Below are positions 21,956 through 52,789 of a DNA stretch of 63,263 nt, one piece after another. The notes beneath the pieces were generated by a model. The model was not told the origin of the DNA, searched no databases, and saw only the letters and a program-made list of their open reading frames with translations. The DNA is from a virus: the IMG/VR virus record IMGVR_UViG_3300025853_000078, positions 1 to 63,263 of that record, one strand, 5' to 3'. The first letter of the stretch is position 1. Each line of letters opens with the position of its first letter. The position numbers were made by a program, and so were the translations under genes.

Positions 21956-22727
21956 TGGCAAATACATAAAAATGGACAGAGTTATTGAAAACGTATATAG
22001 AGATTACGGGTTTGATAACTTAGATTGGATACATTGTGTAGAATGGATTGGCGAGTGCTTAGATTTAATAGGTGCTCCTTTGACGTATATAAAGAAAGCT
22101 ACAGATGGTAATGAAAAGTTAGGTCATCAATCACCTGTTGTAATAGAAGATAATAGAGGTAAGATACCTTGTGATTTACACCAAGTTATTCAGATATTCA
22201 AAAAAGAAAATGGATATTATCATCCAATGAGAACATCTACTGATACTACTCATATATCATATTTTTGTAATGGTAAATCTTCTGATATAAATAGAGATAG
22301 TGAATATACTTATACTTTAAATGATAATTTTATATTTACAAATTTTGATGAAGGTGAATTAGTTATAGAATATATGGCTAATCCAACAGATGAAAATGGT
22401 TATCCTATGATACCTGACAACATTAAATATATTAAAGCTTGTCAAGCTTATATAGGAGATAAGATATTATTCAAAAAAGAAATTAAAGGTGTAGATATTA
22501 AACCTAGAGTAGTATTAAAGATTGAGCAAGATTTAGCTTGGTACACAGGTGCAGCAGATGCATCAGCTAGAATACCTACTATAGATGAAATGGAAAGTTG
22601 GAAAAATAACTTTATGAAATTAATACCTAATGTTAATTCACATGCTGGAGCATTCAGAAGTGATGGACAAATGGAAAGAAGGTTTAATGCATCTAACACT
22701 AATGGTAATAATAACAATAGAAGATAA
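21948..22727 (+). CDS. tail-barrel ring / connector protein candidate
   Basis: This 259-residue protein has an N-terminal helical segment (RVIENVYRDYGFDNLDW, then WIGECLDLIG) and a beta body that includes FIFTNFDEGELVIEYMANPT, the typical closing strand of podovirus adaptor domains. A C-terminal helix (MESWKNNFMKLIP) and a disordered Asn-rich tail (SNTNGNNNNRR) follow. Gene order directly before the muzzle gene and overlapping starts support membership of the tail barrel. Confidence 0.6.
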   Translation: MNNGKYIKMDRVIENVYRDYGFDNLDWIHCVEWIGECLDLIGAPLTYIKKATDGNEKLGHQSPVVIEDNRGKIPCDLHQVIQIFKKENGYYHPMRTSTDTTHISYFCNGKSSDINRDSEYTYTLNDNFIFTNFDEGELVIEYMANPTDENGYPMIPDNIKYIKACQAYIGDKILFKKEIKGVDIKPRVVLKIEQDLAWYTGAADASARIPTIDEMESWKNNFMKLIPNVNSHAGAFRSDGQMERRFNASNTNGNNNNRR

Positions 22728-31994: not shown

Positions 31995-34900
31995 ATGGCT
32001 AAAGATTTATTGAATCAAGATGGATTAGATCCTAATTCAGATTATACTAGTTTTGCAAGAAAAAGACTAGAAAAGAAAAGAAGACTATCTCCTAAATATT
32101 CAAATCTTCAATCTACAGAAAAATTAGGATTAGATCACTTATCAGATTACGAAGATTACTTAGATTTATCTAAAACAAATGTTTATACACAGGATGTAAA
32201 TAAACTAAGAGCTCAAGGACAAGGTGGTTTAGAACAAGCATTTAATGCAGTTGTAGGAGGTATAGGAATGGGTTTAGCTACTGCCGTAGAAGACTTGTCT
32301 TATATAGCAGATTTTGATAACCATGTCAAAGCTATGCAAGGATTAGACACTAACGAGAAGAACTGGTTAGCTGAAACAATGGGTGGACTAAAAGAGAATA
32401 TTCGTGAGGGTATGCCTATATACAGAGAGAATCCTTCTGAAGTTTTTGATTGGTCTGACCCAGCATTCTACTGGGATTCAATGAGAGGTATTATAGATAG
32501 TGCCGTAGGTTTTGGTTTACCTGGAGGAGTAGTTTCAAAAGGAGTAAGTGCAGTAGGTAAAGGGGTACTTGCTATGTCAAAGGCTGTGAAAAATACTAAG
32601 AAAGCTTCAAATTTCATAGAGGGTAGTAAGAATGCAAAAAGATTTGATACCTATATGTCAAGTCTAATTAAGAATCAACCAGTAATGCAAGGAGCTAATT
32701 CTTTAGGTGCAGGTTATGTTCAGAACTATGCTGAAGGAAAGATTATGGCTCTTGAAACATATGATGAAACTGAAAAAGAATTATTAGAATTAAGAGAACT
32801 AGGAGAGTTAAATTTATCAGATGATGAAATAAAAAAGGTTGCTGGAGATGCAGCTGATAGAATGCTATTATATAATAAAGCTTTCATACTTACTGATGCA
32901 TTTGGACTACATGGTCTAATGAAAGGTGTAGGAACTACTCGTAATATTATTAAACAAAGAGGGTTTAAAAATAGATTTAAAAACTTTAAAGATAATATAA
33001 CTGGTTTAAATTCTGATAACCTTATAGTACAAGGTGCTAAAGAATCTGTAGAAGAGATTGGTCAGAGTTCATTACAAAAAGAAAGTTCATATAGAGCTAA
33101 AAAAGATGCTGGAGTAGATGTATCTGGATATGACGAAGATGTATTAGCTAGACTAGCAGACTTTGCCTCTAGAGATGAGGCATTACTTGAGGGTATGATG
33201 GGATTCTTTGGTGGTGGACCTCAACGTATATTATCAGAAGCTATGTCTGGAAGATATACAAAATCAGGTAGAGAGGCTTATGATAAATCATTCAGTGATC
33301 AACAAGTTGCTATTGCAGAAAGTGCTTCATTTGTAGAAGGTACTAGTGAAAATTTTATAAAGAAAAAAGAACTCGCAGCTAAATATGAAGCTAAAGGAGA
33401 GACTGAATTAGCTAGAGCTGTAGAATATTCTACATTTGCTGCAGAGGCAATTAAACATTTTGCTAATGGTACTACAGGAGTGTTTGAAGAAGACTTACAG
33501 AGAATTGCTAGTGGAGAGGTTACAGAAGAAGAGAAGGCTGCTTGGGGAGATAACCATCAGAAAAAAGCACAATTATTTTTAGATGAATTATCAAATTTAG
33601 AAAAGGAATGGATTAGAAATTCTAATAGGGGTAATGTTAGTCAAGTTGTAAGTAACTATGCAATGAAAGAGACTAACTCAAAAATAATAAAATCCTTTGA
33701 GAATAAAAGAGCTCAAGCATTAGAAAATTTACAAGAGGTTATAAATGATATTACTAAGGCTTATAAACCAACAATTAAAGATGAATCTGGAAAAGTTACT
33801 CCTTTTACATTTGATATTGAAAATTTAAAATCTAACCCATATAAAGGTAAAGGTTTAAAGAGTGCATCTGCTCAATATAATATGATGCTTAATCGTATTA
33901 AAGATAATTCAGATTATAAAGAATATTTAGATTTAGATAATAAATTAAATAATAATTTTTATGATCCAGCAAGTGGTAAGGTTAGACCTGGATTATATAA
34001 AAGAAAAGAAAAATTAAATAATGAGTATAATAAATCTAAAACTCCTGAAGCAGAAAAAGAATTTATAAAAAAACAACAAGAGTTATCTAAAAATGCAGCT
34101 AAAGCAATGGATGATGCTGCAAAAGAAGCAACAGTTCAAGAAGATTTAGTAAGTAAAGGTAATAAGTATACTGATAAAAATGGTTCAGAATGGATAGTAG
34201 ATGATATAACAGAGGATGGAAAATATAAAATAAAAAAAGCTGTTAATCCTAAATCTACAACATTATTAACTCAAGAGCAATTTGACAATAAGTTTAAAAA
34301 TGAAAGTGGTCAATACTCAACTAAGGTATCAAAAGAAAAGGCTGAGAAATATAAAACAGAAAAGGCTACTACTAAACAACAAAGGAAAGATAAAGAACCT
34401 TCAACTTCTGCAAAAACAAGTGAAGAAAAAAAGGTTAATAAAACTCCAGGTGATCCAAAAGAAATATTTAACTATGGTGTTACAAATAAAGAGAAGGATA
34501 CTGGAGATGATGCTACTGCAAAATTAGTAGATGAGAATAGATTTAAAAGTAGAAATCCACTATCTTTAGCGTGGTTATCATCTAGTAATAGAGAGGAAAG
34601 TGAAAAAGGAAATACTGGAAATATAGATATTACAGATTATTTAGAACAAAAAAATATAGATGTAGTAGGTAAAAAGGTTACTATAGAAGTTGGTTTGCCA
34701 GATGTTAAAGATACTGAATCTGATTATTATAAAGAACAATTAGATTTATATAATAGTTTTCAAAATAGAAATGAACTATCTGAAGAAGATAAAAAAGAAT
34801 TATTAGAAAAACTTATACATAACGGAACTATTTCTGTAACTTTGTTAGATGAGAATGGTAAGCCTATTGAAAAAGAAGGTACTCCAATTAAGTTATTTTT

Positions 34901-37250
34901 ACATACTCCTACATTCATAAAGGGTGATAGTGATTATAAAAATTCAATGACATCTAATAGAAAAGATATATTAGAAAGATTAATGAAAGGTGAAGTTGTA
35001 ACAAGTGAAGTTGTAGATAAATCAAATGGTAGTATACAAAATGGAAATACTTTAAATCCTATTCAAAATATTCTTTTTGATACTGATAATAAAGATATAA
35101 GTCTTTCTGTTAGACACTCTAATGGTAACTTTGCAGTAGGTATGGATGAAGATGGGAATTTAACATATGACGATGATTTAGGTTTATATGAAAGCTCATC
35201 ATCCCCAAAAGGAGCAATATTTGCTAAGGTTAAAACAGCTAATGGTGAATCGTTTCCATTAAGATTATTTGTAGATAATATAAATAAGTATGAAGCTGAA
35301 CTTATATATATGATATATAATAAGATCATAGGTGGAACTAACCCTTCATTACAACTTAGCAATGAAAAATTATCTGATATAGTTGATTATTTAAATACAG
35401 TAAAAGAAACAGCTACAAATAGAGAGGATAAAGCAGCAGTAAATAGAGTTACTGAAATATTAGGATTATTACCAAATAAAAAAGATTCTTCATTAGTGGA
35501 CTTGTTAAACTTTTTAGTATATGAAGGTAAACCTGAAGATGGTAATACTAAGAACCCAACTAAATATCCATTATACTCTGAGAACTTTAAAGTACATTTT
35601 GGTAAAATGTCAATGGGTAAAAAACATACTCCAGTAGTTAAAGAACAATTTATTAATTGGTTACTTGAAAATAAGATTAGGAATGTTGATTTTAAAAGAA
35701 TAAATGATATAAAATATAAAAATCATTTATTAAATAACAATATGTTAAAATCAAATGCAATAATTGGAGATGAAGGTCCTGTATTTGCACAACCTACTAT
35801 CACTATTAAACAAACTAATTCTTCAAGTACATCAGGAAAGTTTAATAAAAACACAGGTCAGATGAATCCAGGTAAAGAGTTTTTTGAAAGTGAGGGAACA
35901 ACAGTTGAAGAATTTGGTGGAGCTACTGATAAGACTGATTTAGATGTAATTAAAAATGAATTAACTTCAAATCCAAAAGGACTAAGGTTGGTAGAAACTG
36001 AAGATTCTAGATACTATTTAGATAAAGATGGTAATAGATATTTAGGAATGTCTAATATTGTAAATAAATCTGATTTTAAAGATGACGAAGGTAGATACAG
36101 TGGAGCTTCTCCAATTGGAAAAACTATTGATAGAATATTAAGAGATTTCTTTTCTGGTAAAAAAATAACATATACAGATAATATAAAAGAAAGATTGAGT
36201 AAAAAAGCTTTTGATGAGTTGATTACAACAATTACTAATTTCAAAAATACTTTCAAAGATGAAAATGGAAGTTTAGATCATATAGAATTTTTAACAGAAG
36301 GTCTTTTTATATCTAACTATAATATAAAAGCTGAACAAAAAGATATTGATAATGCTGTGTCTTCAGAGAAAGATAGAAAAAAATCTTATGGATTAGCTAC
36401 AGAATTAGATATGGTAATAATAAATAGGAAAACAGGTGCTGTTGATTTAGTAGATTTTAAAACAGTACGATTGGATCCTAATAATAAATATTCAAATACT
36501 GTAAGTAAAAAAATAAATAAATCTTGGAATGGTAAACTTTCAGATAAAGAGGGATATTCCAAACAACAAAATGCAAGTAGAGAAATTTTAAAATTAAATA
36601 CAGGTATTAAATTTGACTCTATGAGTTTACTTCCTATACAAGTTTGGTATCCAGATTTTGGACAAAAAACATTAATGGCAAAAATAGTAAATTTAGAAAA
36701 ATTAGAAACTCTACCAATCTCTAGTATATTCCCTAGTTCTTATTCTAAGCAAATTAAAAAGCTACCAGATAGTAAGTCAAAAAAACAACCAGCACAACAA
36801 AGTAGTGAGGTTGAGAAAGTTCTTGTAGATAAATCTACATTAAAAGATGGAGATGTTGTTTATGATAAAGTAGGTACTAAGTTTATTTATAGAGGAGTAA
36901 GACAAGAAGGAAAAACAGGAGCTGGTTCTCCTAGATTGGAGAGAACAGATGGCAGTGGTGAAATTGCTATACCTGGAATAAACATAAAATTATATACTCA
37001 ACCAACACAACAAACTAGTGAAGTTGAAAATGTAAAAATACCTCAATTAAAAATAGGTAAAGAAGATTTGGATAATTATATAGCTGAGTTAAAAGCTGAT
37101 ATAATGTATCCTGTTTCAAATGAGGATATAGATATTCATTCTCAATTATTACATGATAGCTACGCACAACTAATAGAAATGTATTCTCCACAAGAAGCAT
37201 TAGAATTAGCAAAAAATACATTTTTAGAAACTTTAAAAAATTGTTTATAA
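31995..37250 (+). CDS. giant virion protein with PD-(D/E)XK nuclease domain
   Basis: In this 1,751-residue protein, residues about 70-185 contain amphipathic Gly-rich segments (FNAVVGGIGMGLATAVEDL, and SAVGFGLPGGVVSKGVSAVG) suited to membrane interaction during ejection. A long charged helical region spans 450-900. Residues about 1335-1590 carry a RecB/Cas4-like PD-(D/E)XK nuclease. Its catalytic residues are Asp1472 (ATELDMVII), the Asp1487-x-Lys1489 pair (VDFKTVR) and a downstream Gln pair at 1524-1525 (SKQQNASREI), all in correct order and spacing. The last 150 residues look like a small beta domain plus helix. It precedes the RNA polymerase gene with no gap (TAAATG). Nuclease activity is predicted, its target unknown. 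Confidence 0.65.
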   Translation: MAKDLLNQDGLDPNSDYTSFARKRLEKKRRLSPKYSNLQSTEKLGLDHLSDYEDYLDLSKTNVYTQDVNKLRAQGQGGLEQAFNAVVGGIGMGLATAVEDLSYIADFDNHVKAMQGLDTNEKNWLAETMGGLKENIREGMPIYRENPSEVFDWSDPAFYWDSMRGIIDSAVGFGLPGGVVSKGVSAVGKGVLAMSKAVKNTKKASNFIEGSKNAKRFDTYMSSLIKNQPVMQGANSLGAGYVQNYAEGKIMALETYDETEKELLELRELGELNLSDDEIKKVAGDAADRMLLYNKAFILTDAFGLHGLMKGVGTTRNIIKQRGFKNRFKNFKDNITGLNSDNLIVQGAKESVEEIGQSSLQKESSYRAKKDAGVDVSGYDEDVLARLADFASRDEALLEGMMGFFGGGPQRILSEAMSGRYTKSGREAYDKSFSDQQVAIAESASFVEGTSENFIKKKELAAKYEAKGETELARAVEYSTFAAEAIKHFANGTTGVFEEDLQRIASGEVTEEEKAAWGDNHQKKAQLFLDELSNLEKEWIRNSNRGNVSQVVSNYAMKETNSKIIKSFENKRAQALENLQEVINDITKAYKPTIKDESGKVTPFTFDIENLKSNPYKGKGLKSASAQYNMMLNRIKDNSDYKEYLDLDNKLNNNFYDPASGKVRPGLYKRKEKLNNEYNKSKTPEAEKEFIKKQQELSKNAAKAMDDAAKEATVQEDLVSKGNKYTDKNGSEWIVDDITEDGKYKIKKAVNPKSTTLLTQEQFDNKFKNESGQYSTKVSKEKAEKYKTEKATTKQQRKDKEPSTSAKTSEEKKVNKTPGDPKEIFNYGVTNKEKDTGDDATAKLVDENRFKSRNPLSLAWLSSSNREESEKGNTGNIDITDYLEQKNIDVVGKKVTIEVGLPDVKDTESDYYKEQLDLYNSFQNRNELSEEDKKELLEKLIHNGTISVTLLDENGKPIEKEGTPIKLFLHTPTFIKGDSDYKNSMTSNRKDILERLMKGEVVTSEVVDKSNGSIQNGNTLNPIQNILFDTDNKDISLSVRHSNGNFAVGMDEDGNLTYDDDLGLYESSSSPKGAIFAKVKTANGESFPLRLFVDNINKYEAELIYMIYNKIIGGTNPSLQLSNEKLSDIVDYLNTVKETATNREDKAAVNRVTEILGLLPNKKDSSLVDLLNFLVYEGKPEDGNTKNPTKYPLYSENFKVHFGKMSMGKKHTPVVKEQFINWLLENKIRNVDFKRINDIKYKNHLLNNNMLKSNAIIGDEGPVFAQPTITIKQTNSSSTSGKFNKNTGQMNPGKEFFESEGTTVEEFGGATDKTDLDVIKNELTSNPKGLRLVETEDSRYYLDKDGNRYLGMSNIVNKSDFKDDEGRYSGASPIGKTIDRILRDFFSGKKITYTDNIKERLSKKAFDELITTITNFKNTFKDENGSLDHIEFLTEGLFISNYNIKAEQKDIDNAVSSEKDRKKSYGLATELDMVIINRKTGAVDLVDFKTVRLDPNNKYSNTVSKKINKSWNGKLSDKEGYSKQQNASREILKLNTGIKFDSMSLLPIQVWYPDFGQKTLMAKIVNLEKLETLPISSIFPSSYSKQIKKLPDSKSKKQPAQQSSEVEKVLVDKSTLKDGDVVYDKVGTKFIYRGVRQEGKTGAGSPRLERTDGSGEIAIPGINIKLYTQPTQQTSEVENVKIPQLKIGKEDLDNYIAELKADIMYPVSNEDIDIHSQLLHDSYAQLIEMYSPQEALELAKNTFLETLKNCL

Positions 37251-40200
37251 ATGAATTGTTTTAATTTATCAAAACCAGCAGAAAAGAAAGAATATAAAAG
37301 ACTATTACAATATTCTAATATACCAGCATTTATAAATAAAGTATTTGACTATACTAATGGTGATACAAAAGGTATAAAAAGTAAAGAGGATTTCAATAAG
37401 GTTTTAAAATCCGCTTTAGATACAGTTATAAAATCTCCTGCATTAAAAGATACTACTTCTAAATTACCACTGTCTAGATTTACATTTGAACAAAGAGAAG
37501 AGCTTGTAGATAATATAATATTTTTAACTGCATTTGATGGAGATAGTCAATCCTTAAAACCTTTGAAGAATATAAATCTTTCTTTAGAGAATGTAAAGGG
37601 ATCATTATTATCTGCTAAACAATTAGCTAATCCAGTATATCATTCTAATTATGATGAAGCATTAAAACCAGAAAATTTAGAGGTTTTAATAGATATGGCA
37701 ACAGCTAAATTAAACTCTATGGGAGTACAAGTTGATTTAGAAGAAGATCCTGACTCAAAGAATGATGGAATGAAAGAGTTTGAGGATTCATTTCTAATAG
37801 AAAATAAAACAAGAGCAAGAGCTTTTGTAAAATTACTTGTTGGTTCATTACCAAAAAAAGAGTTAGGTACTACATTAGGTATAACAAAGTTTGTACCATA
37901 TGATAAAACATTTAATGATCTTGAAGAATTATTAAGTGATTTATATATTGAGCCAGGTAAAGATGCATACGAGGTATTTAAAGATAAGATTAATTCTGCT
38001 ACTGCATATCGTCCAGAGTATATTCAATTATTAAAGTTTCTAGATAAAACTAATGACCAACATAAGATTCAATTTATCAGAGCATTTTCTACTCTTAGTA
38101 TTAATTTTTCATCTACTAGTATAGATGTTACTAAAGATAGTATGGGAGTAGAAACTTCTTATATGTCATCAGATAGTGTTACAGCTGAATCACAAATACT
38201 TTTAATATGGGAAGGAGCATTTAAAGAATATTTCATAAAAGAAGGGAAAGAACCTGAAGCAAATAACATACCAACAATAAAGGCTGCAGAAGATAGATAT
38301 AAAAATAAAATAAAAAAAGAGTTAAGAAAAAGAATAAAGAAAGGTGAGACAAAAATTACTCAAGAAGATTTTAATGATACTGTAGGAATACTAGGATTTT
38401 TAGGAATAGGAATTAAAGAGAATGCTTTAAAATTATATCTATCTGATAATAGTGATGGTAATGATTTAAAATCTTTGAATAACCTTTATACTAATGTTAT
38501 AGATAAAGTATTCTACGGTACTAGTGTTAGTACTAATGCCCTAAGTCATTTAGCTAAGAATGAAGTTAAACATGAAGATGGGTATGTAAAATCACCAATT
38601 ACTGATGAATCAGAAATAAAGGCATTAGCTTCTTATCAAGCTAAGTTTGATGAAACAATTATAACAAATGGATTTCCTGGACCAGATGGTAAAATATATC
38701 AAAGTAAATCTCAATATGATTATGCTTCTAAAGTAATAGAAGATATTAAAAATAGTAATAACTATTTAGAAAAAATAGAAGGTTCTGATTTCAATACTAA
38801 TTCAAAGTTTATTGAACAACTAAAAGATCCAAAAGTAAAAAAGAATTTTAAACTAGAACATTTCAATAGTAGAAGAAGTAAAGGTCAAGATGGTGGAAAA
38901 ACTATGAAAGACCTATCTCCTGTAGATGAATATGCAGATAGAATAGATAGAGTCTTAACTAAAGGACAATTATCTTATTTAACATTAGCTGATAAAAATA
39001 GATTGTATTTTATAAGTGGATTAACAGTATTCAAGGAAGATGCTGATAATAAAATAAAAGATAAAGATTTAGTAAGTTCTTCTAATGTATCTGAAGAAAT
39101 GGTTGATACAGTATTAGGTTATTTTGCTGATGAATTAATATCATCTAGGAGATATTTTTTGATAAATAAAATAACAACAAAAGGACAAAAGAAGAGAATA
39201 TTAACTGGTATAGAAGCTAATATGAAAACTTCAAGTGTATTGCCTGGTTTATCTTTTGGTTCAAAAGAAGGTGATGACAATGGTTTATATCATACTGATG
39301 GAACACCATTTAAAATGTCTACTAGTTATATAGAAGAGGTTGGAGATCCAAAAAATCCAGAAATAGTTATAAACCCTGGATTCTTTTCAAATAGTAATCT
39401 TAGAGATTATATTAAAAATGTATTGGAAGAAAGAATATTAGCTAGTTCTCAAAATATGTTAGATACTTTATTCACTTTTGATGAAAAAGGAATACTAGAT
39501 GAGACAGCTATATCTACAGATTTATTTAAAACATTTATAAACCCTAAAATAGCAGATAATAAAAAGCCTACTCGTAATGAAGTATTAGAAGGTATTAATG
39601 TTATGGCTACCAACTTTGTATATAAGAGTGTAGTAGGTAATGTAGAATGGTCTAAGATATTTACTGGAGATCCAAGAAAATACAAGAGCTTAGAAGATTA
39701 TATGAAGAGAACTCCTGCTACATCTGCAACAGGAGATCATTTATATATTAATGAAAAGATAGGTTCTAAAAAACATTTTAAGTTAGCTATTGCTAGTGAT
39801 GTAGATGAACACAATGCAGAAGAGTTAACTATTACTGCTAACATAGATAATATTGCACAATGGTTAGGTGTAGATAAGAATGATGAAGAACTAAACAATG
39901 TATTATCTGTATATGGTAAAAATAATAGAACGGATGCACAGGGTTGGATGACAATGGATAGGTTTAAAGATATCCTAAAAGGATTGGGAGAATGGAATCA
40001 AGAAATGGACCCAGGATTCAATAGACTTAAAAATGGAACTGAGACAGAAGAAGATATAAAGTTATTCTCAACTAAGATGACTAGTATGCAACCTAAAAAA
40101 GGAATGTACTATAGTTTAGTTGTAGATGAATGGGGGAATGCTAATCCTATATATTTGAAATATTCTACTGCTGTTCTTTTTCCAGGTATGATAAAAACAT

Positions 40201-43200
40201 CTCCTAAGTTAGCTAAGATAGCAAAAGAAATGGAAGCTCAAGGTATTGATGAACTTGTTGTTGAAGATGGTGTTAAAGTTGGTAAAATAGCTAGTACTGA
40301 TATAAATAATGATGAAATAATATTTAACCCTGTAACTTTAGAAAATAAATATTGGAAATTACAACAGGATTTACCATTTAAAGATAAAGAAACTAATGTT
40401 GGTTCTCAATTACAAAAAAATATTATAGGAGATATAGATTTATTTGCTGATTTTGGACCATATGGTACAGGAGAAGATGTATTGAGAGATATACATTCTA
40501 CAATAAGTGAATTATCTAATAGAGGATTTGATAAAGTATTAAATAAACTAGGATTAGAAAAAGAAGAAGTAGAATATGATGAAGAAACTGGTAGATGGGA
40601 GATTGACTCAAGAGCTAATTTAAATAAACTATATGATTCATTAATTGAAGAATATACTAATGATGGTGAGACAGGGGATGTCATTCAAATGCTTAAAGAA
40701 AGACAACCTCTTGATTTTATATATACTCATGGTAACACAATAATGAGTAAAGTAACTTCAATTTTTACTAAGAATGCTATACAATTAGAGCAACCAGGAG
40801 GATCAGCAATTCAAATGTCTAACTTTGGATTTGATTTAGGTGATGATAGAGGCGTAGCTAAGACCATTTCTCAATTACCAGATCATATTAAAAATGAAAT
40901 AACATGGTTACAAAAAGAAAATGAATTAACTGCTCCTACCGTTAAGACTAATCCTAAAACAGGAGAGTTAGAATTTTCAAGAGCACAAGTTGCATTACCA
41001 TATAGTGCATTAGAAAAATTATTTGGTGAAGAGTGGGAAGAATTAAAAAATCTACCTATAGATGAGCTGAGAGATAGAATTGATCCTAAAGCATTACAAG
41101 GTATAGGTTATAGAATACCTAATCAAAAACTTGCTTCTAATGATCCAATAGAGATTGTAGCTATATTACCACCAACTGCTGGTAACACTATTGTTGCATA
41201 CGCAGCTGTAACAACTAAGACAGGTTCAGATTTTGATATTGATAAGATGTATTATACAATGCGTCCTATCAAAAAGTCTAAAAAAAATGGTAAAACTTAC
41301 ATTGAAGCTGTTAAATATTTAGATAAGAATAGCACGGTTGAGGAAAGAGCAGAGTCTTTAGTTAGGAATACTTCGGAATTAGCTAGAGTTATGTCTATGT
41401 TATATGATACAGAAAGTGTTAAAAATATAATTAATGACATGAATGATTGGTATGCATTAAGAGAAACTGCATACTATAAAAAAGGATTAAAATTACAAGA
41501 AGAAGAAGATAAAATAAATAACATATTCTCACAAATAAAAGAGTTAAAAGCTAAATTAAAAAAAGCTAGTAAAAAAGAAAAAGAAAGTATAATAATAGAC
41601 ATTGCTGATTTACAATTCACGTTATCTAGGATAACTAAAGAAGAAGATATGGTAATGGAAGTTATTAATAAGTATAGAAAAGATTTAGTTACCAGTGTAT
41701 CTGAAAAAATAAAAGGTCTTTCAATTGATGAACAAAATACTAAGAAAGCATTGCAATCTCGTAGAATAGATTTGTATGACGCTATATTAACTCATCCATC
41801 ATCTTATTTAAGATTGATGTCTACAGTAGATTCTGATTGGTTAAAAGATCACATAAACATGACTCTACCTAAATCAGAATTAAAAGATTTAGAATTTTAT
41901 ACTGGTGAATTTCATATGAATGCTAGACGAGAAAACATATCTTCTAAATCAGGAGTTGGTCAAGTTGCTAACCACCAAGTAGATCATGCCATTAGTCAAT
42001 GGGCTGAGATATACTTAAACCAAGAGAATAGATTGGGGATGGGAAATACCACTAAAGAAGGAATGGTGGATTTATCAGGTAAGACAGTTACTGAGTTTGA
42101 GATTATAGCTGCATATGATAAAGATGGTAATAAAATTGAATCTAAAGATTTATCTAGTAGTAAGCCAGTTAAGTATAAAATAGAAAAAGTAATAAAAAAT
42201 AAAGTTGTAATAACAGAAGTTACATCTGCATATATGAATGCATTTGTTGATGCTGCTAAGGATAACTATATTGGTAGAGCTAACTTTAATAGATTAACTA
42301 ATAATACTGCATTCTTATTAATAAGAGCAGGAATTAGTCCTCAGTTTGTAAATGCTTTCTTATCTCAACCTATTATAAAAGAGTATGTAAAAGAGACTAT
42401 GATCAATGAAGGTCAAGCTACTCCAATTAGTTCAAAGAAACCTATTGACAAAGTATTAGATAAGTTTGGAGAAGGAGCAGTACCTAGTGAAGCATCTAAG
42501 TTATCAGATTTCAATACTTTAGATATGATGAATACAATTCTGAAGTATCAAAATTCAAAAGAAGATGTTGAATCATTAGATATGTCAGAAAGATTAGATC
42601 AGGTAGAAATATTAGAATTATTTATGCATATTGTAGAAACATCTAAGCATCTTAGAGATTCTATAATTTCTACTAAATCTGATACAGGAATAGGTAAGTC
42701 TTTATTTGATGCATACATAATTACTACTACTAGAGATAATGTTAGAAATGTTAATCTTATAGGTAACTATAATAAAAAGTTTGAAAAAGATGAGATGAAA
42801 ACAATGGCTGGGACATTTTATAAAAATGGTCCTGCAGCAGCCAATGAGATAGTAGGTAAGCAAACACTTTTAGGAACTAGTGGTATGCAAAAATACTTAC
42901 ATAACACATATAGACAATTATGGGGAGAACTTCCTAGTGACTCTAGAAAACTACGTAAGCTATATAATATGGGGGTAGGAGCATTGATATCTTATATTAG
43001 TGATTTTAGTATGACACAAGAAGAATCTGCAGCTTTTAATTCTGGTGTAAATTCAATTGCAAAAAGAATTGTAAAATTACAAAATAATGATAAATATAAA
43101 GATAACTTTTTAGCTTCAATGTTAGTTACAGATATATCATATAATGGTGATATATCATATGTTGGTATAAATAACTTTAAACCTAGGAATGCTTCAGTTA

Positions 43201-45410
43201 ATAAACAAATTTCAAATGCTTGGCAAGAGCTATATGAAGATCCAGCAACTAAACAGTTAGCAACGGATCTTGCTAAATATGCATTCCATTCTTCTGGAAC
43301 AATGGATACTGGTTCAACACTGTATAGATTAATGCCTTATAGAATAGCTCAACAATTAGGGTTGAATACTGAAACTTATAATAAAATAAGAAATGTTTTA
43401 AATATTCATGACATATCTCAATCATTAATGAATCAAGTTCTTATAAATTCTTGGTATGATACAGAATTAGTACCTAAGATACCTAATAAAAATGCTTTAC
43501 AAATAGGTAAATCTCCTGTAGGTATCATATTTAGAGTTAATGATGTTAGTAGCCCAGGTCTTAAAGTTGGAACAACAGAGAATAACCAACCAGTATTTAA
43601 ACCTTTTCTTAGAAGAACATTATCTAATAAATTAGCTACGGATAGAATTATATATGAAGATGCATTATTTAAATATGTTGGAAATATAAAAGATTCTGAA
43701 ACAGGTCGTGAATCTGGGGTATATAAAAGAGTTCCTAGATTTGGAACTAAACAAGGGATATTTAAATTATTTGAATTTACATTTAAAGATCCTAATAGAA
43801 ACTCAGTTGTTAAATATAATAAATTAAAACCTTTTATATCTACTGCAGTTAATACAGAACTTGCTAAAATACAAGGTTCATTAATAGACCCTCAACCAGT
43901 CTATATGAAATCTCAAAGAAATGTGATAAAAGAATATGGAGCATCAATAAAAGAAGATAAAGAAAATACAACTAATGGAATTGAAGAGGTAGCAGATGGT
44001 ATTAAAATTATAAATAACTCTTTAACTAGTTCTGAGGAATTAGAGATTTTTCAAATGATTAAACCTCTTCTTGAAAGTCAGGGTTCTAGATCAAACAAAG
44101 GAAAGAATGCTCCTATAATGATAGGTATGGGTCTAAGATGGGATTATAAAAGTAATAATCCAGGGAAATCTCCTATTGAAATAAAGGAAACAATTGTAAA
44201 TACACAAGGTCAAAGAAATAAATACGCTTATTATGATGTGTCTATTGATGGGGAACCTTTAGGAAAAATACCTACTAGACTTAAAGAATTAATGACAAAA
44301 GCCACAGGTATTGATTCATCTAATTATGATGGAGCAATCATTAATATTTATCCAAAAGGCGGGTTTATATCTGCACATAATGATGTAGATGAGTCTATAA
44401 CTGCTATTAACTATCCTGTTATAGTAGCGAATATAGGAGGAGCTGGAAGTTTAAGTATTGAAGGAGCTGAAAGTCAAAAAGATAGAAGAGATTACTCTAA
44501 TAAAGAATATGTAAATAAACCTTTATCATCAGGAAGCTCTTATATATTTGGTGAAGATGGTAAAAATAGAAGTGTATTTCATAGAACACTTCCTTCATCA
44601 GGTAAAGGTAATTTACCTCAATTAAACATAAAAGGTCAAATTATACCTGCAAACTCTTATAGAATTTCTGTAACATTAAGAAGAGTAAAAGATTTAGAAC
44701 AAGGTATGCCAGACTCTCCTGCTAAATCACAATTAATACAACAAACCACTAAAGATAAACTACCTTATTATGAAGGCATGATAACTTCTTTAGAAGATAA
44801 TCAAGTATTTGTATTTGGTAGTAATCCAGAAGGAAGACATGGCAAAGGAGCTGCAAAAACTGCTATGAACTTTGGAGCTATATATGGACAAGGTGAAGGT
44901 ATGCAAGGACAAAGCTATGCATTACCTACTAAAGATTTAAGAGTAAAAGAAAATAATGGGTTACGTTCTATATCTTCTGAACAAATAACTAATAGTATTT
45001 CTACTCTTTATAATATAGCTGAAGAAAATAATGAAAAAGAGTTTTTAGTTTCTGATTATTCAGGTAAAAACCTTAATGGATATACAGGGAAAGAAATGGC
45101 TGAGATGTTTGTAAATGCTGGAAAAATACCTGATAATATAATATTCAATAAAAATTTCTTACCTATGATAAATGAAGAAATTAAAAAGAAATGTCAAGGT
45201 AATGGGTCTGGTCCTAAAGCTAAAGATGGTGCTCAATTTGGATTTACTCCAGGTAGTAGATGGAAGATTATAAAAGATTTTAAAGGTAAATCTCATGATC
45301 AAGGAGGTATTGATATAAATATTTCTAAGAATGGTATTAAAATGTCAGGAAAAAATGGTAACTTTGAAGCTAAGAAGGGATGTATTATTAATTCTAAAAG
45401 TTTAAAATAA
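37251..45410 (+). CDS. virion RNA polymerase fused to AlkB-like and macro-like domains
   Basis: This 2,719-residue protein carries the signature of the crAss-like single-chain RNA polymerase, GSDFDIDKMY, with Asp1327, Asp1329 and Asp1331 as metal ligands of the beta'-type double-psi barrel. In phi14:2 this enzyme is packaged in the virion and transcribes early genes. Known members are about 2,200 residues; the surplus here is a C-terminal extension. Residues about 2250-2485 are AlkB-like 2-oxoglutarate/Fe(II) dioxygenase (HxD His2376/Asp2378, distal His2444, RxSxTxR at 2471-2477). Residues about 2515-2645 are macro-like (VFVFGSNPEGRHGKGAAKTA, then QSYALPTKDL). The last 60 residues carry a KSHDQGGI cargo motif. 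It overlaps the next gene by one base. Confidence 0.85.
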   Translation: MNCFNLSKPAEKKEYKRLLQYSNIPAFINKVFDYTNGDTKGIKSKEDFNKVLKSALDTVIKSPALKDTTSKLPLSRFTFEQREELVDNIIFLTAFDGDSQSLKPLKNINLSLENVKGSLLSAKQLANPVYHSNYDEALKPENLEVLIDMATAKLNSMGVQVDLEEDPDSKNDGMKEFEDSFLIENKTRARAFVKLLVGSLPKKELGTTLGITKFVPYDKTFNDLEELLSDLYIEPGKDAYEVFKDKINSATAYRPEYIQLLKFLDKTNDQHKIQFIRAFSTLSINFSSTSIDVTKDSMGVETSYMSSDSVTAESQILLIWEGAFKEYFIKEGKEPEANNIPTIKAAEDRYKNKIKKELRKRIKKGETKITQEDFNDTVGILGFLGIGIKENALKLYLSDNSDGNDLKSLNNLYTNVIDKVFYGTSVSTNALSHLAKNEVKHEDGYVKSPITDESEIKALASYQAKFDETIITNGFPGPDGKIYQSKSQYDYASKVIEDIKNSNNYLEKIEGSDFNTNSKFIEQLKDPKVKKNFKLEHFNSRRSKGQDGGKTMKDLSPVDEYADRIDRVLTKGQLSYLTLADKNRLYFISGLTVFKEDADNKIKDKDLVSSSNVSEEMVDTVLGYFADELISSRRYFLINKITTKGQKKRILTGIEANMKTSSVLPGLSFGSKEGDDNGLYHTDGTPFKMSTSYIEEVGDPKNPEIVINPGFFSNSNLRDYIKNVLEERILASSQNMLDTLFTFDEKGILDETAISTDLFKTFINPKIADNKKPTRNEVLEGINVMATNFVYKSVVGNVEWSKIFTGDPRKYKSLEDYMKRTPATSATGDHLYINEKIGSKKHFKLAIASDVDEHNAEELTITANIDNIAQWLGVDKNDEELNNVLSVYGKNNRTDAQGWMTMDRFKDILKGLGEWNQEMDPGFNRLKNGTETEEDIKLFSTKMTSMQPKKGMYYSLVVDEWGNANPIYLKYSTAVLFPGMIKTSPKLAKIAKEMEAQGIDELVVEDGVKVGKIASTDINNDEIIFNPVTLENKYWKLQQDLPFKDKETNVGSQLQKNIIGDIDLFADFGPYGTGEDVLRDIHSTISELSNRGFDKVLNKLGLEKEEVEYDEETGRWEIDSRANLNKLYDSLIEEYTNDGETGDVIQMLKERQPLDFIYTHGNTIMSKVTSIFTKNAIQLEQPGGSAIQMSNFGFDLGDDRGVAKTISQLPDHIKNEITWLQKENELTAPTVKTNPKTGELEFSRAQVALPYSALEKLFGEEWEELKNLPIDELRDRIDPKALQGIGYRIPNQKLASNDPIEIVAILPPTAGNTIVAYAAVTTKTGSDFDIDKMYYTMRPIKKSKKNGKTYIEAVKYLDKNSTVEERAESLVRNTSELARVMSMLYDTESVKNIINDMNDWYALRETAYYKKGLKLQEEEDKINNIFSQIKELKAKLKKASKKEKESIIIDIADLQFTLSRITKEEDMVMEVINKYRKDLVTSVSEKIKGLSIDEQNTKKALQSRRIDLYDAILTHPSSYLRLMSTVDSDWLKDHINMTLPKSELKDLEFYTGEFHMNARRENISSKSGVGQVANHQVDHAISQWAEIYLNQENRLGMGNTTKEGMVDLSGKTVTEFEIIAAYDKDGNKIESKDLSSSKPVKYKIEKVIKNKVVITEVTSAYMNAFVDAAKDNYIGRANFNRLTNNTAFLLIRAGISPQFVNAFLSQPIIKEYVKETMINEGQATPISSKKPIDKVLDKFGEGAVPSEASKLSDFNTLDMMNTILKYQNSKEDVESLDMSERLDQVEILELFMHIVETSKHLRDSIISTKSDTGIGKSLFDAYIITTTRDNVRNVNLIGNYNKKFEKDEMKTMAGTFYKNGPAAANEIVGKQTLLGTSGMQKYLHNTYRQLWGELPSDSRKLRKLYNMGVGALISYISDFSMTQEESAAFNSGVNSIAKRIVKLQNNDKYKDNFLASMLVTDISYNGDISYVGINNFKPRNASVNKQISNAWQELYEDPATKQLATDLAKYAFHSSGTMDTGSTLYRLMPYRIAQQLGLNTETYNKIRNVLNIHDISQSLMNQVLINSWYDTELVPKIPNKNALQIGKSPVGIIFRVNDVSSPGLKVGTTENNQPVFKPFLRRTLSNKLATDRIIYEDALFKYVGNIKDSETGRESGVYKRVPRFGTKQGIFKLFEFTFKDPNRNSVVKYNKLKPFISTAVNTELAKIQGSLIDPQPVYMKSQRNVIKEYGASIKEDKENTTNGIEEVADGIKIINNSLTSSEELEIFQMIKPLLESQGSRSNKGKNAPIMIGMGLRWDYKSNNPGKSPIEIKETIVNTQGQRNKYAYYDVSIDGEPLGKIPTRLKELMTKATGIDSSNYDGAIINIYPKGGFISAHNDVDESITAINYPVIVANIGGAGSLSIEGAESQKDRRDYSNKEYVNKPLSSGSSYIFGEDGKNRSVFHRTLPSSGKGNLPQLNIKGQIIPANSYRISVTLRRVKDLEQGMPDSPAKSQLIQQTTKDKLPYYEGMITSLEDNQVFVFGSNPEGRHGKGAAKTAMNFGAIYGQGEGMQGQSYALPTKDLRVKENNGLRSISSEQITNSISTLYNIAEENNEKEFLVSDYSGKNLNGYTGKEMAEMFVNAGKIPDNIIFNKNFLPMINEEIKKKCQGNGSGPKAKDGAQFGFTPGSRWKIIKDFKGKSHDQGGIDINISKNGIKMSGKNGNFEAKKGCIINSKSLK

Positions 45411-47137: not shown

Positions 47138-50100
47138 ATGGCACTAACTTGTCCAAACATTAATCTTCCTGAATGGAAACAACTAGAAGCTAATCATCCA
47201 GACTTAGCTTATTTCTATTGGGATAAATATGATGGTGAAATTCCATCTGATTTATTAAAAGAAACTCCTGATGTTTTAAATAAAAAACTTAAAGAAGGAT
47301 TCCTAAAAGATTGGAATGTAGAGGTAGCAGACTATGATAGTATTAAAGATGCTTTAGGTCATGACAGCACTCAAATGATTGATCTTTTATCTAAATTCAT
47401 TGCTCTTGAAAAAGGAGAGTCTTTAGATAAATCTACAGCATTCTTTGCATTTAGAATGTTAGGTAAGCAAAACAATAAGGTTATTAGTGAGCTTAGATAT
47501 AGGGTTAATGCATGGGATAAATATAAAGAAAAATTTGATTTTTATAAAAAAGAATTGTTTAATCAAACAGGATTTATAAAAAATAGAAAGGATTGGATTA
47601 ATGCTGTTAGAGATAAAGTTATTGTAGATTATTTAGCTGAAACTATTGTAGAGTATGATAAAAATCCTATAGAATTTGAAAATGTCACTGATAGAAAATG
47701 GACTCAAGAAGATTTTACTTTCTTTGCTAAATTAGCTAGAGCTATTAGAAATTTCTTTCAGAAATTAGGAGTAATTCAGAATAGTAAAGAAGAGTCTCAA
47801 AAGATTGCTAAAAATATTGTTACTCAAATAGCTCATGAAGTATTAACACAAGAATATGATATACTTAACTATGAATTAGAAGAAGGACAAGTACAAAAAT
47901 ATTATGAAAATACTATAGCTTCTGATAAAAAAGCTAAAGAAATAGTAGAATATCATCAGGATAATGGTATGGTATTAACAGGAAGTTTAGCTTTAAGAAA
48001 AGCTGGAACTGTTTATAGAACTTTAGAAGAAAATTTACATGATTTAGACTTTGTAGTTCCTTTTGAAACTTCTGATGCTCCTGTTAATCAAGAAATATTA
48101 AGAGAAATTAAAAAGCGGCAAGGAGGTAACTTACAAGCATCAGGAAAAAAGACTTTAGAAATAATAGAAGATTTACATTGGTTTTCCAATTTTAAATCAC
48201 AATATCCTTCTTACCAATTATTACAAGGGTTCTATGGTTCAGAACACGGAAGTTACGAAAGCTTTACTGTAACAGGAGTAGTTGATGGTGAATTTTATGA
48301 AAGTAATGGTACTCATGAAGTAACTAATAATGACGGTACTACTACAAATATTAAACATGAAAAAGGAGATTGGATAGAAGGTACTGGATATATTGTTGAT
48401 CACTTTGTTAGATTAGAACCTAACCAAGAAGAACATGAAAATTATTTTAAGTTATGGAAAGAAATAATGATTGCTAAACTTAAAATGAATAGAGCAAAAG
48501 ATTTAACTGATTTTAAAAACTTTGTTCCTTTTACTAAATCTAAAGATTCTTATAATTTTTATTATAAAGATTGGGTATTCCAAACTGGAAAGAATGATAA
48601 GGCTGCTGAAAAAGAGGAAGATGTGGTTTACTATCATAAACAACCTGAATTTGCTATAACTGAAGATGAATTTAAATTAAATCTTAGACGGATTGTATAC
48701 AGAGATGTAGTTAAATCTAAAGGTTGGGTATCAAAAAATAAAAAGATACAAGGTAAAAGGGCTATTAAGCACGTTTATAAGAATGCTTCTCTTTCAGCAA
48801 TGAAAGATCCCGAAGCTAGAAGAAATGCTGTTATATATCATTATAACTCGTTATCTACTATGAATAAAAGATTTAATAATGGAGAACAACCTTTTATTAT
48901 AACAAAGCTTTCTTCAACATTTGTTACAAGTAATAATCAAAGAATAGAAATACCAAATTATACAGTTGAATTTAATGATGATTATTTAGATGTAGAATGG
49001 GAAAAGGCTAAGTCATCACAAGTAAATTTACCTTTAAATGATAAGTCAGAAGCTCAGTTAAATATTGATTTCGGAAAAGATTTTAAACAAAAAGCTACTC
49101 CAATTGATACTGGGTTTGATACAGTAGAAGATCTTAATGATAAAATTAACATATTAAAAAAGTCATTACCAATGGCTGATGTATCATTTAATGGTGACTT
49201 ATCTAAAAATGTATATGGTAGATTAATTACAAAGAAAGGTGAGAGTCCTGTAGTAGAAATTAATCCTAGATATAATAAAAGAGATACTGCAATTCACGAA
49301 TTTGGACATTTATATATTGACCTATTAGGTGGTATGAATAATAACTTCATAAAAAGAGGTAGAAGACTATTGGAGGGTTCTGATGTTGAATTTGAAGTTA
49401 CTGCTGCTTATCCAGAATTAAGTGGAGAGATGTTAGATAAAGAAATTCTTACTACTGCTACAGGTAGAGAAGGAGCTGATTTATATGATCTAAAAAAACA
49501 ATCACCATTTAAAGCATGGATTAAAATATTTCTTAATAAAATAAAATTAGCTTTAAATCTTAGAGGTAATGTAGCTTTGGAATTAGCACAACAAATGTTA
49601 AATAACAAGGTTAATAAATCACAACTAAATTCATCTTTAAATGATGTAATTCAAAACTCTAAAACTAATGGGTATGAAGAATATGCATCCAAAGAGGATA
49701 ATTTAGTTTCTGATATGGCTATCAAAATATTAGATAGAATTAAAATTCTACAATCTAAATATAAGAAAACTAATAATGAAAAGTTTAAAAAGCAAATAGA
49801 AAAATTAGTTAAAATTTTAGATACTAATAGAGATGCTAAAGGTATTATTAGATATACAGAAGAAACTATAGCTAGATCTGCTTCTATTGTTTCTCGTATG
49901 AATAAAATTAGATTAGATGATGAATCTTCACCAATTGAAAAGGCAGAAGATATTAGACAATTAGGAATATATTTAAAATCATTTTCTTTAATACCAGATG
50001 TAAAAGAGTTATATCTAGAGATTAGAAAGAATCCTAGTACTCCTGAAGAAAAAGAGTTAGTTAGATTAATGGAAAATGCTGAAACTGAAGAGAAGCTTAA

Positions 50101-52789
50101 TGCAGCAGCTATTAAAGTATTGGAAATTAATCAAGAATATTCTATATTAAGAAGAGATAATCTTACTGATATATTAGTTTCTAAGTCTAATAGAATGAGA
50201 GATTGGTATAGGGATGAATATGAAAAAGAATTTTATGCAGAAGTAGGAGGTTATTCAAATGCTAAAAAAGAATTTGGAAAAGAACTACAAGATAAAAAAC
50301 AAGATTATATAGCAGAAAAATTAGCAGAAAATTCAGATTTAATACAAAGAGCTGAAAGAAATTATATAAGAGATATACTTAAGGCAGCACCTAAAGATAT
50401 TGAAGGTGGGATATTTGCTCAATACGCTGTTGATCCTAGAAGTTTAGATGATGCTCTAATACAGACAGCTGTAGAATTATTAGATAATGCTGATTATGAG
50501 GCAATGAGGAGATTCTTAGATGAAAGAAATTCATCATTAGATGTATATGAAGAATATTATCAATGGAAAGGTAAGCCATCTGACCAAACAGTTTTATATG
50601 ATGGAATTATTGAAAAAGTAGACGGTAAAGAAACTAACCATATAGTTGGTAAATTCTTATCTTCATTTAAAGATGCTGTTAGACAATTTTACGAAGATAA
50701 TCCAGATGCAACTAAAGCAGAAATTAAAAAGTTTTATATGGATACTAAAGGGGATTATATAAATCCTCAATGGGTCCAATTAGAAAAACTTAGAGAATCC
50801 CATCCTAATGGAGATCATCCAAAATTAAGAATGTATGATTATCTTATGACTAAATTTAAGGAAAAGGATAGTATGGTTAATCCTGGTCAAAGATTAAACA
50901 TAGATGTAGATAAATACCATCCTACTTTTAAATTACCTTCTATAGAGAAAACTGCTATGGAAAGTATGTATGAACAAGGATTATTTACTTCAGTTAAGCA
51001 ATCAATAAGAAGAGGTACTAAAAGAACTACTGAGGATATAGAATTTGGAGATGTTCCAGAAATGTCTGTTAACTTTAAAAATGTACTAATTAATGAGGCT
51101 GGTAAAGAGAATCAGCACATACCTGTTTATTATAGAGGTAATATAGAAAACATTAATAAACAATCTTTTGATTTAATGGGTATTCATTTAATGGATCATC
51201 ATCAATTAATAAATTATCAAGAAAAGAATAAAGTTGGTTCTACATTAGAGTTAATGGCAGAACAAGCTGGAGAAAGAGAAGTAAATAGAAGAGAAAATGG
51301 TAAACTACTTATTAATCCTTTAGGTACAAGAGATTTAACACCTGTTCCAAAAGCAGGTATTGAGTCTAGTTCGTATAAAGCTTTGCATTCTATAATACAA
51401 GATAGATTATATGGAATATCTTCTATACCTATTGGTAACATAGGGGGCACTAATCTAAATAAAGTTGGAGATGGTTTAATGGCTTGGACAGGTCATACAC
51501 TGCTTATTATGAATAAAATGGCTGCAGGAGTAAACATATTACAAGGTAAATATCAAAACTTCTTAGAAGGTGCTGGTGGTACAATATATAATAGAAAAAA
51601 TCTAAGAGTAGCTGAAAAATTAGTAGCTAAAGATTCTGTTCATATGGGTGCTGATTGGGGTAGAAATAGACCAAAAGCAATTACTAACTTATTAATTGAA
51701 CTATTTGATGCTCAAAGTGATTTTTCAGGATTGAAATATAGATTATCTGAAGATAATAAATTAAAAAGATTAGTTAGTTCTTCAACTGGACATATACTTA
51801 ATCATGCTGGTGAGAATTATATTCAATCTACTTTAATGTATGCTATATTAGATGCAACAAAGGTTAAAGATGCAGCAGGAAATAAAATACCATTACATGA
51901 AGCATATGAAAGACAGTATAAAACTAAAGATGGGAATTGGCTATCAGAAAAAGAAAAATCCAATTTATCTGATTCTAGTATATTAACAGAAAATGTTAGA
52001 TTGGCAGTTAAAGAAGGTATAGAGATATCAAGAGATTTTGAAAAAGATATATCTAGAAAAATAAAACAAACTGTTAAAATACTTCATGGTAATTATGATT
52101 CTAACAATCAAGCTATGGCTCAAAGATATGCAGTGCTTAAATTATCATTTATGTTACGTAAATGGTTAATACCAGGAATGCAAAGAAGATGGAGAGGAGT
52201 TAAATATTCTTTTAAAGATAATGAATCTAGAACTATACATGATGTAGCATATGACCCATTACTAAATAAATCAGTAGAAGGTTATTATTCTACAACTATT
52301 AGGTTCTTATGGAATGCTAAAAAAGAACTCAAAAAATTTGAATTTGGAATAGTATCTGGACAATGGAATAATTTAACTGATGAAGAAAGAGCTAATATTA
52401 GAAAGACTATAATTGATATATCAACAATGATATCTTCTTTAGCAGCAGCTTCTTTCTTAGCTGGACTTGCAGAAGGTGTAGATGATGAGGATAAAGATGT
52501 ATATTATTCACTTGCCTACTTATTTAGAAGACATTATTCAGAATTACGTTTTTATACTTCACCAACTGAAGGAATGAAGATATTATCTTCACCAGCAGCA
52601 TCATTAAGTATGATTCAAAAAACTAGTTCTTTTATTGATCAAGCTTTTACAGCTCCAACTGAAAGATATGTTAAAGGTCCTAAAAAGGGAGATTTAAAAT
52701 TATATCATCAAGGGGCTAAATTAACTCCAGTTTTAAGTCAAACTGAAAGAAATATTAAAGATATCTATGATTGGTTAGAAAGAAATTAA
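47138..52789 (+). CDS. giant virion protein with nucleotidyltransferase and zincin domains
   Basis: This 1,883-residue protein is the last of the late block. Residues about 265-490 contain a nucleotidyltransferase-like core: Gly282-Ser283 in VLTGSLALRKAG and Asp302/Asp304 in HDLDFVVP. Residues about 690-790 contain a zincin protease core, HEFGH at 720-724, with a downstream DKEILTTA Glu as the likely third ligand. The central 900 residues are charged helix. The C-terminus has one hydrophobic stretch (MISSLAAASFLAGLAEG) and a typical tail (LTPVLSQTERNI). The zincin may mature the giant proteins or act on a host target; the nucleotidyltransferase substrate is unknown. It starts six bases after the hydrolase gene. 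Confidence 0.6.
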   Translation: MALTCPNINLPEWKQLEANHPDLAYFYWDKYDGEIPSDLLKETPDVLNKKLKEGFLKDWNVEVADYDSIKDALGHDSTQMIDLLSKFIALEKGESLDKSTAFFAFRMLGKQNNKVISELRYRVNAWDKYKEKFDFYKKELFNQTGFIKNRKDWINAVRDKVIVDYLAETIVEYDKNPIEFENVTDRKWTQEDFTFFAKLARAIRNFFQKLGVIQNSKEESQKIAKNIVTQIAHEVLTQEYDILNYELEEGQVQKYYENTIASDKKAKEIVEYHQDNGMVLTGSLALRKAGTVYRTLEENLHDLDFVVPFETSDAPVNQEILREIKKRQGGNLQASGKKTLEIIEDLHWFSNFKSQYPSYQLLQGFYGSEHGSYESFTVTGVVDGEFYESNGTHEVTNNDGTTTNIKHEKGDWIEGTGYIVDHFVRLEPNQEEHENYFKLWKEIMIAKLKMNRAKDLTDFKNFVPFTKSKDSYNFYYKDWVFQTGKNDKAAEKEEDVVYYHKQPEFAITEDEFKLNLRRIVYRDVVKSKGWVSKNKKIQGKRAIKHVYKNASLSAMKDPEARRNAVIYHYNSLSTMNKRFNNGEQPFIITKLSSTFVTSNNQRIEIPNYTVEFNDDYLDVEWEKAKSSQVNLPLNDKSEAQLNIDFGKDFKQKATPIDTGFDTVEDLNDKINILKKSLPMADVSFNGDLSKNVYGRLITKKGESPVVEINPRYNKRDTAIHEFGHLYIDLLGGMNNNFIKRGRRLLEGSDVEFEVTAAYPELSGEMLDKEILTTATGREGADLYDLKKQSPFKAWIKIFLNKIKLALNLRGNVALELAQQMLNNKVNKSQLNSSLNDVIQNSKTNGYEEYASKEDNLVSDMAIKILDRIKILQSKYKKTNNEKFKKQIEKLVKILDTNRDAKGIIRYTEETIARSASIVSRMNKIRLDDESSPIEKAEDIRQLGIYLKSFSLIPDVKELYLEIRKNPSTPEEKELVRLMENAETEEKLNAAAIKVLEINQEYSILRRDNLTDILVSKSNRMRDWYRDEYEKEFYAEVGGYSNAKKEFGKELQDKKQDYIAEKLAENSDLIQRAERNYIRDILKAAPKDIEGGIFAQYAVDPRSLDDALIQTAVELLDNADYEAMRRFLDERNSSLDVYEEYYQWKGKPSDQTVLYDGIIEKVDGKETNHIVGKFLSSFKDAVRQFYEDNPDATKAEIKKFYMDTKGDYINPQWVQLEKLRESHPNGDHPKLRMYDYLMTKFKEKDSMVNPGQRLNIDVDKYHPTFKLPSIEKTAMESMYEQGLFTSVKQSIRRGTKRTTEDIEFGDVPEMSVNFKNVLINEAGKENQHIPVYYRGNIENINKQSFDLMGIHLMDHHQLINYQEKNKVGSTLELMAEQAGEREVNRRENGKLLINPLGTRDLTPVPKAGIESSSYKALHSIIQDRLYGISSIPIGNIGGTNLNKVGDGLMAWTGHTLLIMNKMAAGVNILQGKYQNFLEGAGGTIYNRKNLRVAEKLVAKDSVHMGADWGRNRPKAITNLLIELFDAQSDFSGLKYRLSEDNKLKRLVSSSTGHILNHAGENYIQSTLMYAILDATKVKDAAGNKIPLHEAYERQYKTKDGNWLSEKEKSNLSDSSILTENVRLAVKEGIEISRDFEKDISRKIKQTVKILHGNYDSNNQAMAQRYAVLKLSFMLRKWLIPGMQRRWRGVKYSFKDNESRTIHDVAYDPLLNKSVEGYYSTTIRFLWNAKKELKKFEFGIVSGQWNNLTDEERANIRKTIIDISTMISSLAAASFLAGLAEGVDDEDKDVYYSLAYLFRRHYSELRFYTSPTEGMKILSSPAASLSMIQKTSSFIDQAFTAPTERYVKGPKKGDLKLYHQGAKLTPVLSQTERNIKDIYDWLERN

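Follow-up and report, generated by a model that had tools for sequence, protein, structure and literature searches.

AlkB-like dioxygenase and predicted macrodomain-fold modules fused to virion RNA polymerases of crAss-like phages

A polymerase chain with a C-terminal extension

The window, that is, the whole 63,263-nucleotide stretch of viral DNA analysed here (IMG/VR record IMGVR_UViG_3300025853_000078), carries at positions 37,251-45,410 a single open frame of 2719 amino acids, running from ATG to stop, in which we find in this order a virion RNA polymerase (vRNAP), an AlkB dioxygenase, an A1S_2505-family domain and a tail of 70 amino acids. The crAss-type polymerase part covers residues 1-2200 (37,251-43,850, plus strand) and was recognised by phmmer in the PDB through the vRNAP of phage phi14:2 (6vr4, E 2.7e-100, query residues 169-1912) and by blastp through the vRNAPs of 70 or more viral contigs. 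Its catalytic motif, DFDID, lies at residues 1327-1331 (41,229-41,243, plus strand), as an earlier sequence-only reading had noted, so that the chain has both the homology to the phi14:2 RNA polymerase and the DxDxD motif that characterise crAss-type vRNAPs. In the closest polymerase relative, L006, the chain stops after 2196 amino acids and its blastp alignment reaches window residue 2247, which makes everything beyond that point an extension. The same sequence-only reading had placed dioxygenase and polymerase in one frame, and indeed no frameshift separates them. The sole frame break was found in the contig IMGVR 3300006810_000035 (L005), 99.97% identical to the window, where a homopolymer of six A (around L005 position 11,310) replaces the seven A of the window (around 41,560) and disrupts the reading frame within the polymerase part, near residue 1440 and not at the AlkB junction. 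This difference is probably an assembly error in one of the two contigs.

Upstream of the polymerase and on the same strand are the genes of the crAss muzzle protein (22,727-27,253, plus strand; PF25731, 465 bits) and of a homologue of crAss cargo protein 1 (27,353-29,920, plus strand; PF25725, 43 bits), which identify the region as a Crassvirales virion block. Two further giant open reading frames of this block, at 47,138-52,789 (1883 aa) and 31,995-37,250 (1751 aa), gave no informative family match. The tail of the polymerase chain (residues 2650-2719; 45,198-45,407, plus strand) contains an HDQGGI motif and resembles a stretch in the vRNAP of contig L048 (E 2e-10), with a related motif in cargo protein 1 of the window. 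Short motifs of this HxxGGI / EVE(G)GE type occur three times in the block: in cargo protein 1 (HANGGIPIGQGAEVE, window 27,872), at the polymerase end (HDQGGIDINI, 45,294) and at the beginning of the following gene (EVEGGEIAIQ, 45,428). They are possibly a signal for cargo targeting or processing.

The AlkB-like 2OG-Fe(II) dioxygenase domain occupies residues 2246-2480 (43,986-44,690, plus strand). When residues 2240-2485 were scanned alone, the family PF13532 (2OG-FeII_Oxy_2) matched with 54.0 bits against a cut-off of 31.2 (E 3e-14), and the residues H2376, D2378, H2444, R2471 and R2477 are all present. A dioxygenase core previously proposed at 2376-2477 therefore had the right motif and ligands but the wrong extent, the domain reaching from about 2246 to 2480. 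An AlphaFold2 model built from an alignment with 23 relatives (pLDDT 85.9, pTM 0.87) retrieved E. coli AlkB structures as its top 23 Foldseek matches in the PDB (E 5e-11 to 2e-9; for 2fdk, E 5e-11 and a TM of 0.76 by target), and next rice ALKBH1 and human ALKBH5. With the model for the alkylated DNA repair protein AlkB equivalog (TIGR00568), the window scored 21.7 bits, below the required 231; judged by its sequence, the domain is a member of the AlkB superfamily and not an orthologue of bacterial AlkB.

A comparison of 24 different AlkB sequences showed that the positions of H2376, D2378, H2444, R2471, T2475 and R2477 are invariant in all of them, and loss of the iron ligands (H, D, H) in relatives, which would speak against a dioxygenase, was not seen. 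Likewise invariant are D2380 and E2381 of the HNDVDE motif. The corresponding motif of E. coli AlkB is HQDKDE, so that both share the Asp and Glu after HxD. On the other hand, the Asn position of RxNxTxR is Ser or Thr across the 24 sequences, which counts against a dealkylase. Pairwise dN/dS values between close AlkB relatives range from 0.08 to 0.32 and, together with the invariant residues, they indicate purifying selection as for a working enzyme; from sequence, the domain looks functional.

The A1S_2505-family domain follows at residues 2510-2645 (44,778-45,185, plus strand). Its stretch GSNPEGRHGKGAA (2523-2535) forms the core of the matches to NCBIfam NF049995 (A1S_2505_Nterm, phage non-structural protein; 112.9 bits against a cut-off of 45, residues 2500-2650) and to phrog_2072, which scored 111 bits on the same stretch. 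Like those of the polymerase and the AlkB domain, these scores lie well outside what chance would give. A structural model of the domain (pLDDT 88) matched mostly macrodomains in Foldseek (probability 1.00, TM about 0.6, E 2.6e-4 to 6e-3), the best one being the macrodomain of Venezuelan equine encephalitis virus with ADP-ribose (E 2.6e-4), and TARG1 was aligned with a TM of 0.62-0.63 and an rmsd of 3.8. Sequence profiles gave neither a Pfam macro match nor a macrodomain in the A1S profile search of the PDB, which returned nothing meaningful, and the informative comparison is that of folds. With moderate strength, the models thus point to a macro fold. Altogether, profile searches (PF13532, NF049995) and predicted AlkB and macro folds bear out the two enzyme-like cores that had been noticed in the extension from the letters alone, the macro-like one at the level of moderate fold scores. 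PhicrAss001 gp50, considered as another carrier of the A1S domain, was absent among the matches listed (40 of 418 records).

Recurrence and exchange of the modules

Starting from the AlkB domain, searches found 28 other viral contigs, and 34 loci when the alignment was used as query (the near-identical L005 included). The family is present in 33 viral contigs besides the window; these include near-duplicates, without which some 28 distinct contigs remain (29 different AlkB rows when the window is counted). In 31 of the 34 open reading frames a polymerase core (230-443 bits with an iterated core profile) lies in the same frame as AlkB, the exceptions being two frames cut by contig ends and the homopolymer frameshift of the 99.97% identical contig. 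The core profile was built from AlkB-free and AlkB-bearing loci, so that its E-values come from a profile partly made of the same sequences; many of the cores had already been found by blastp with the window polymerase alone. A phmmer search with the long polymerase query missed the cores of AlkB-bearing contigs, and a PF13532 scan of the records from which 79 loci came, most of them found through their polymerases, detected the family solely in the 99.97% identical contig. The other fusions were reached only from the AlkB side because their polymerases are too diverged. The crAss muzzle family was found in 23 of 36 records, comprising the 34 with AlkB and the AlkB-negative polymerase relatives L006 and L007. 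A tblastn search of the sequenced-phage collection gave no AlkB match at E 0.01, and two weak partial matches in bacterial MAGs of the genome_contigs set (31-35%, about 50 aa) were not used.

The modules that accompany AlkB in these chains vary. An A1S domain was found in four AlkB records besides the window (L129, L133, L139 and L144), NADAR in another four (L142 and L151 above the family cut-off, L135 and L137 below it) and an SF1 helicase in L130, L136, L142 and L151, while single chains carry RNase H (L134:10502-11641), a circularly permuted YpsA SLOG domain (L150:10706-11398) or DUF7831 (L138:8297-18289). A1S and NADAR occur together in no AlkB record among those searched. Judged by sequence family, all the companions of known family concern nucleic acids or ADP-ribose/NAD. 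Moreover, A1S is also fused, at very different positions, into polymerase chains without AlkB (L084, L085, L086, L087, L002, L003 and L018); the A1S-bearing polymerases include those of frurule, cr112_1, cr116_1 and cr50_1 as well as L002, L003 and L018. Kolpuevirus 'frurule' has Bacteroides cellulosilyticus as its recorded host. Outside phages, the AlkB model matched by fold a protein of Pithovirus LCDPAC02 annotated with a NADAR domain (BFVD A0A481YQG8, 1058 aa), which, if the predicted fold is right, may join AlkB and NADAR in one chain.

A survey for AlkB on other polymerases thus extended the initial observation to more than 30 viral contigs, in company with nucleic-acid and ADP-ribose modules. 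In the papers searched, crAss-like, RNA polymerase and AlkB co-occur in none, and the fusion is undescribed there. It has the appearance of a recurrent toolkit that would reach the cell before phage genes are switched on.

The histories of module and polymerase differ. The window AlkB shares 66-71% identity with those of L156 and L129, the polymerase cores of the same chains only 22-23%, whereas the window core is 48-49% identical to those of the AlkB-free L006 and L007. Accordingly, window, L129 and L156 are grouped in the AlkB tree (support 100/100). In the polymerase tree the window falls together with L006 and L007 (support 100), and the presence of AlkB has to change state at least five times along it. 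A polymerase topology constrained to unite window, L129 and L156 was rejected (AU p 3e-43); the trio had been chosen on its AlkB identities and not on the polymerase tree. The contrast in identities and the rejected clade indicate that the module moves between polymerases. It is also dispensable, as L006 and L007, closest to the window by polymerase, lack it. Positions change as well: AlkB precedes the core in L138 and follows it in the other chains, and A1S lies at residue 73 in cr112_1, 973 in cr116_1, 1896 in frurule and 4022 in cr50_1, while in other polymerase chains it adjoins AlkB on one side or the other.

Possible roles of the extension

The crAss polymerase travels in the virion, is translocated into the host and transcribes the early genes, as summarised for phi14:2 (PMC7886860). 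In this line, PhicrAss001 virions contain RNA-polymerase-associated cargo proteins of 150-277 kDa, for which ejection via partial unfolding has been proposed (PMC10172136). Our preferred reading, to which we give an even chance, is that a crAss vRNAP has acquired a payload at its C terminus, consisting of a nucleobase dealkylase of the AlkB type and a macrodomain-fold (A1S_2505) domain, and that this payload, once ejected, works as a template-clearing kit tethered to the enzyme that is first to read the genome. For the fused chain we infer ejection, catalysis, substrate and coupling to transcription as follows. By homology with phi14:2 and PhicrAss001, the whole chain would be packed in the capsid, ejected with the DNA and refolded inside the cell. 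The polymerase would then start early transcription while the tethered AlkB, using 2-oxoglutarate and oxygen, removes alkyl groups, methyl among them, from bases in the DNA as it enters or in the first transcripts, and the macrodomain may handle ADP-ribose adducts or signals.

Packaged DNA is not repairable in the capsid, and N1-methyladenine and N3-methylcytosine block polymerases. A tethered dealkylase would therefore act just where the first transcript forms, on strands opened by the polymerase, and modules that remove ADP-ribose, helicases and RNase H would likewise fit a role in keeping template and transcript clear. Against this template-clearing reading counts the oxygen requirement of AlkB; against tethering, that cleavage of the polymerase by a protease could let the modules act separately. 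More tentatively, we propose a set of interchangeable tools (AlkB; macro, NADAR or SLOG; SF1 helicase; RNase H) covalently tethered to the ejected vRNAPs of crAss-like phages for the transcription-coupled reversal of base damage and of host-imposed ADP-ribose or methyl marks before phage gene expression, a counterpart of the RNA-virus replicases that bear AlkB and macro domains.

The same anatomy is compatible with counter-defence, and sequence does not separate it from template clearing. Here the ejected AlkB and macro or NADAR modules would reverse host-imposed marks before phage genes are on, for example ADP-ribosylation of the DarT type on phage DNA or RNA, immune signals based on ADP-ribose, or protective host methyl marks. 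We regard this reading as rather unlikely. A macro-fold or NADAR module stands alongside AlkB in at least seven, and up to nine, polymerase chains; NADARs take ADP-ribose off guanosine in DNA and RNA and have been proposed to protect phages from host ADP-ribosyltransferases (PMC11125620, PMC11833690), and a jumbo-phage AlkB has been proposed to reset methyl marks (PMC7824862). However, the toxicity of DarT1 was not rescued by a phage NADAR in the cited test (PMC11125620), ADP-ribose is no AlkB substrate, PADLOC gave no family matches, and an ADP-ribose role for A1S is predicted from its fold.

The modules could also sit on the polymerase merely to be packaged, being later released or acting elsewhere, on host tRNA, protein or a metabolite, with no link to transcription. 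Such a passive ride would accommodate their variable positions (A1S at residue 73 in cr112_1, 973 in cr116_1 and 1896 in frurule, and the N-terminal AlkB of L138) as well as the peptidase processing proposed for multidomain proteins of the polyvalent kind (PMC5512222). We consider it improbable, as those companions that can be assigned to a family work on nucleic acid or ADP-ribose/NAD and none is structural. Neutral capture of domains with no function would explain the patchy distribution, with at least five state changes on the polymerase tree and close relatives that lack AlkB, but catalytic residues invariant in 24 sequences and dN/dS values of 0.08-0.32 make it very improbable.

If the template-clearing reading is true, a repair or demodification enzyme would be part of the phage protein that is first to meet the genome in the cell, and this in an order of phages that is common to gut and environment. 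This opens the question of whether packaged genomes are damaged or host-marked at entry and the vRNAP is equipped to undo it, for which the A1S-bearing polymerase of frurule is an immediate laboratory handle.

Comparison with known systems

The window polymerase and the phi14:2 vRNAP are homologous single-chain, double-barrel enzymes with the DFDID motif, encoded in a virion gene block. The 6vr4 chain has 2194 aa, whereas that of the window is about 480 residues longer and carries the AlkB and macro-fold domains; the record L012, with a polymerase frame of 2184 aa, gave no match to PF13532 or NF049995. By profile score (NF049995, phrog_2072) the window domain belongs to the A1S_2505 family, whose members are often small stand-alone phage proteins (frames of 122 and 145 aa, for example), while the window copy is inside a virion polymerase. 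The crAss genomics paper describes large multidomain transcription proteins, some with a PDDEXK nuclease, and the words AlkB, macro and NADAR are absent from its text.

Polyvalent proteins (PMC5512222) are also large and multidomain, are believed to be injected alongside the DNA of the phage or plasmid, and mix nucleic-acid, ADP-ribose and peptidase functions. Like them, the window chain combines several disparate enzymatic domains (polymerase, AlkB and A1S), and by homology with virion cargo proteins it would be injected with the DNA. A text search of that paper for AlkB, dioxygenase, NADAR and crAss found none of these terms.

In plant RNA viruses (Flexiviridae, Ampelovirus and others), AlkB is likewise fused to the viral polymerase chain, in the replicase polyprotein, where its place varies and its descent differs from that of the polymerase (PMC544882); A1pp/macro domains are also present in the replicase set studied there. 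Foldseek searches of viral models returned such AlkB-bearing replicases, along with the NADAR-named Pithovirus protein with an AlkB fold. The plant virus replicase, however, is an RNA-dependent polymerase made in the infected cell, whereas the window encodes the DNA-dependent enzyme of a DNA phage that is expected to be pre-packed, and the presence of AlkB in both is likely a convergence. The nearest described relatives of the fusion are therefore the AlkB-bearing replicases of plant RNA viruses and the polyvalent proteins, and the parallel with RNA-virus replicases that bear AlkB and macro domains suggests a shared solution.
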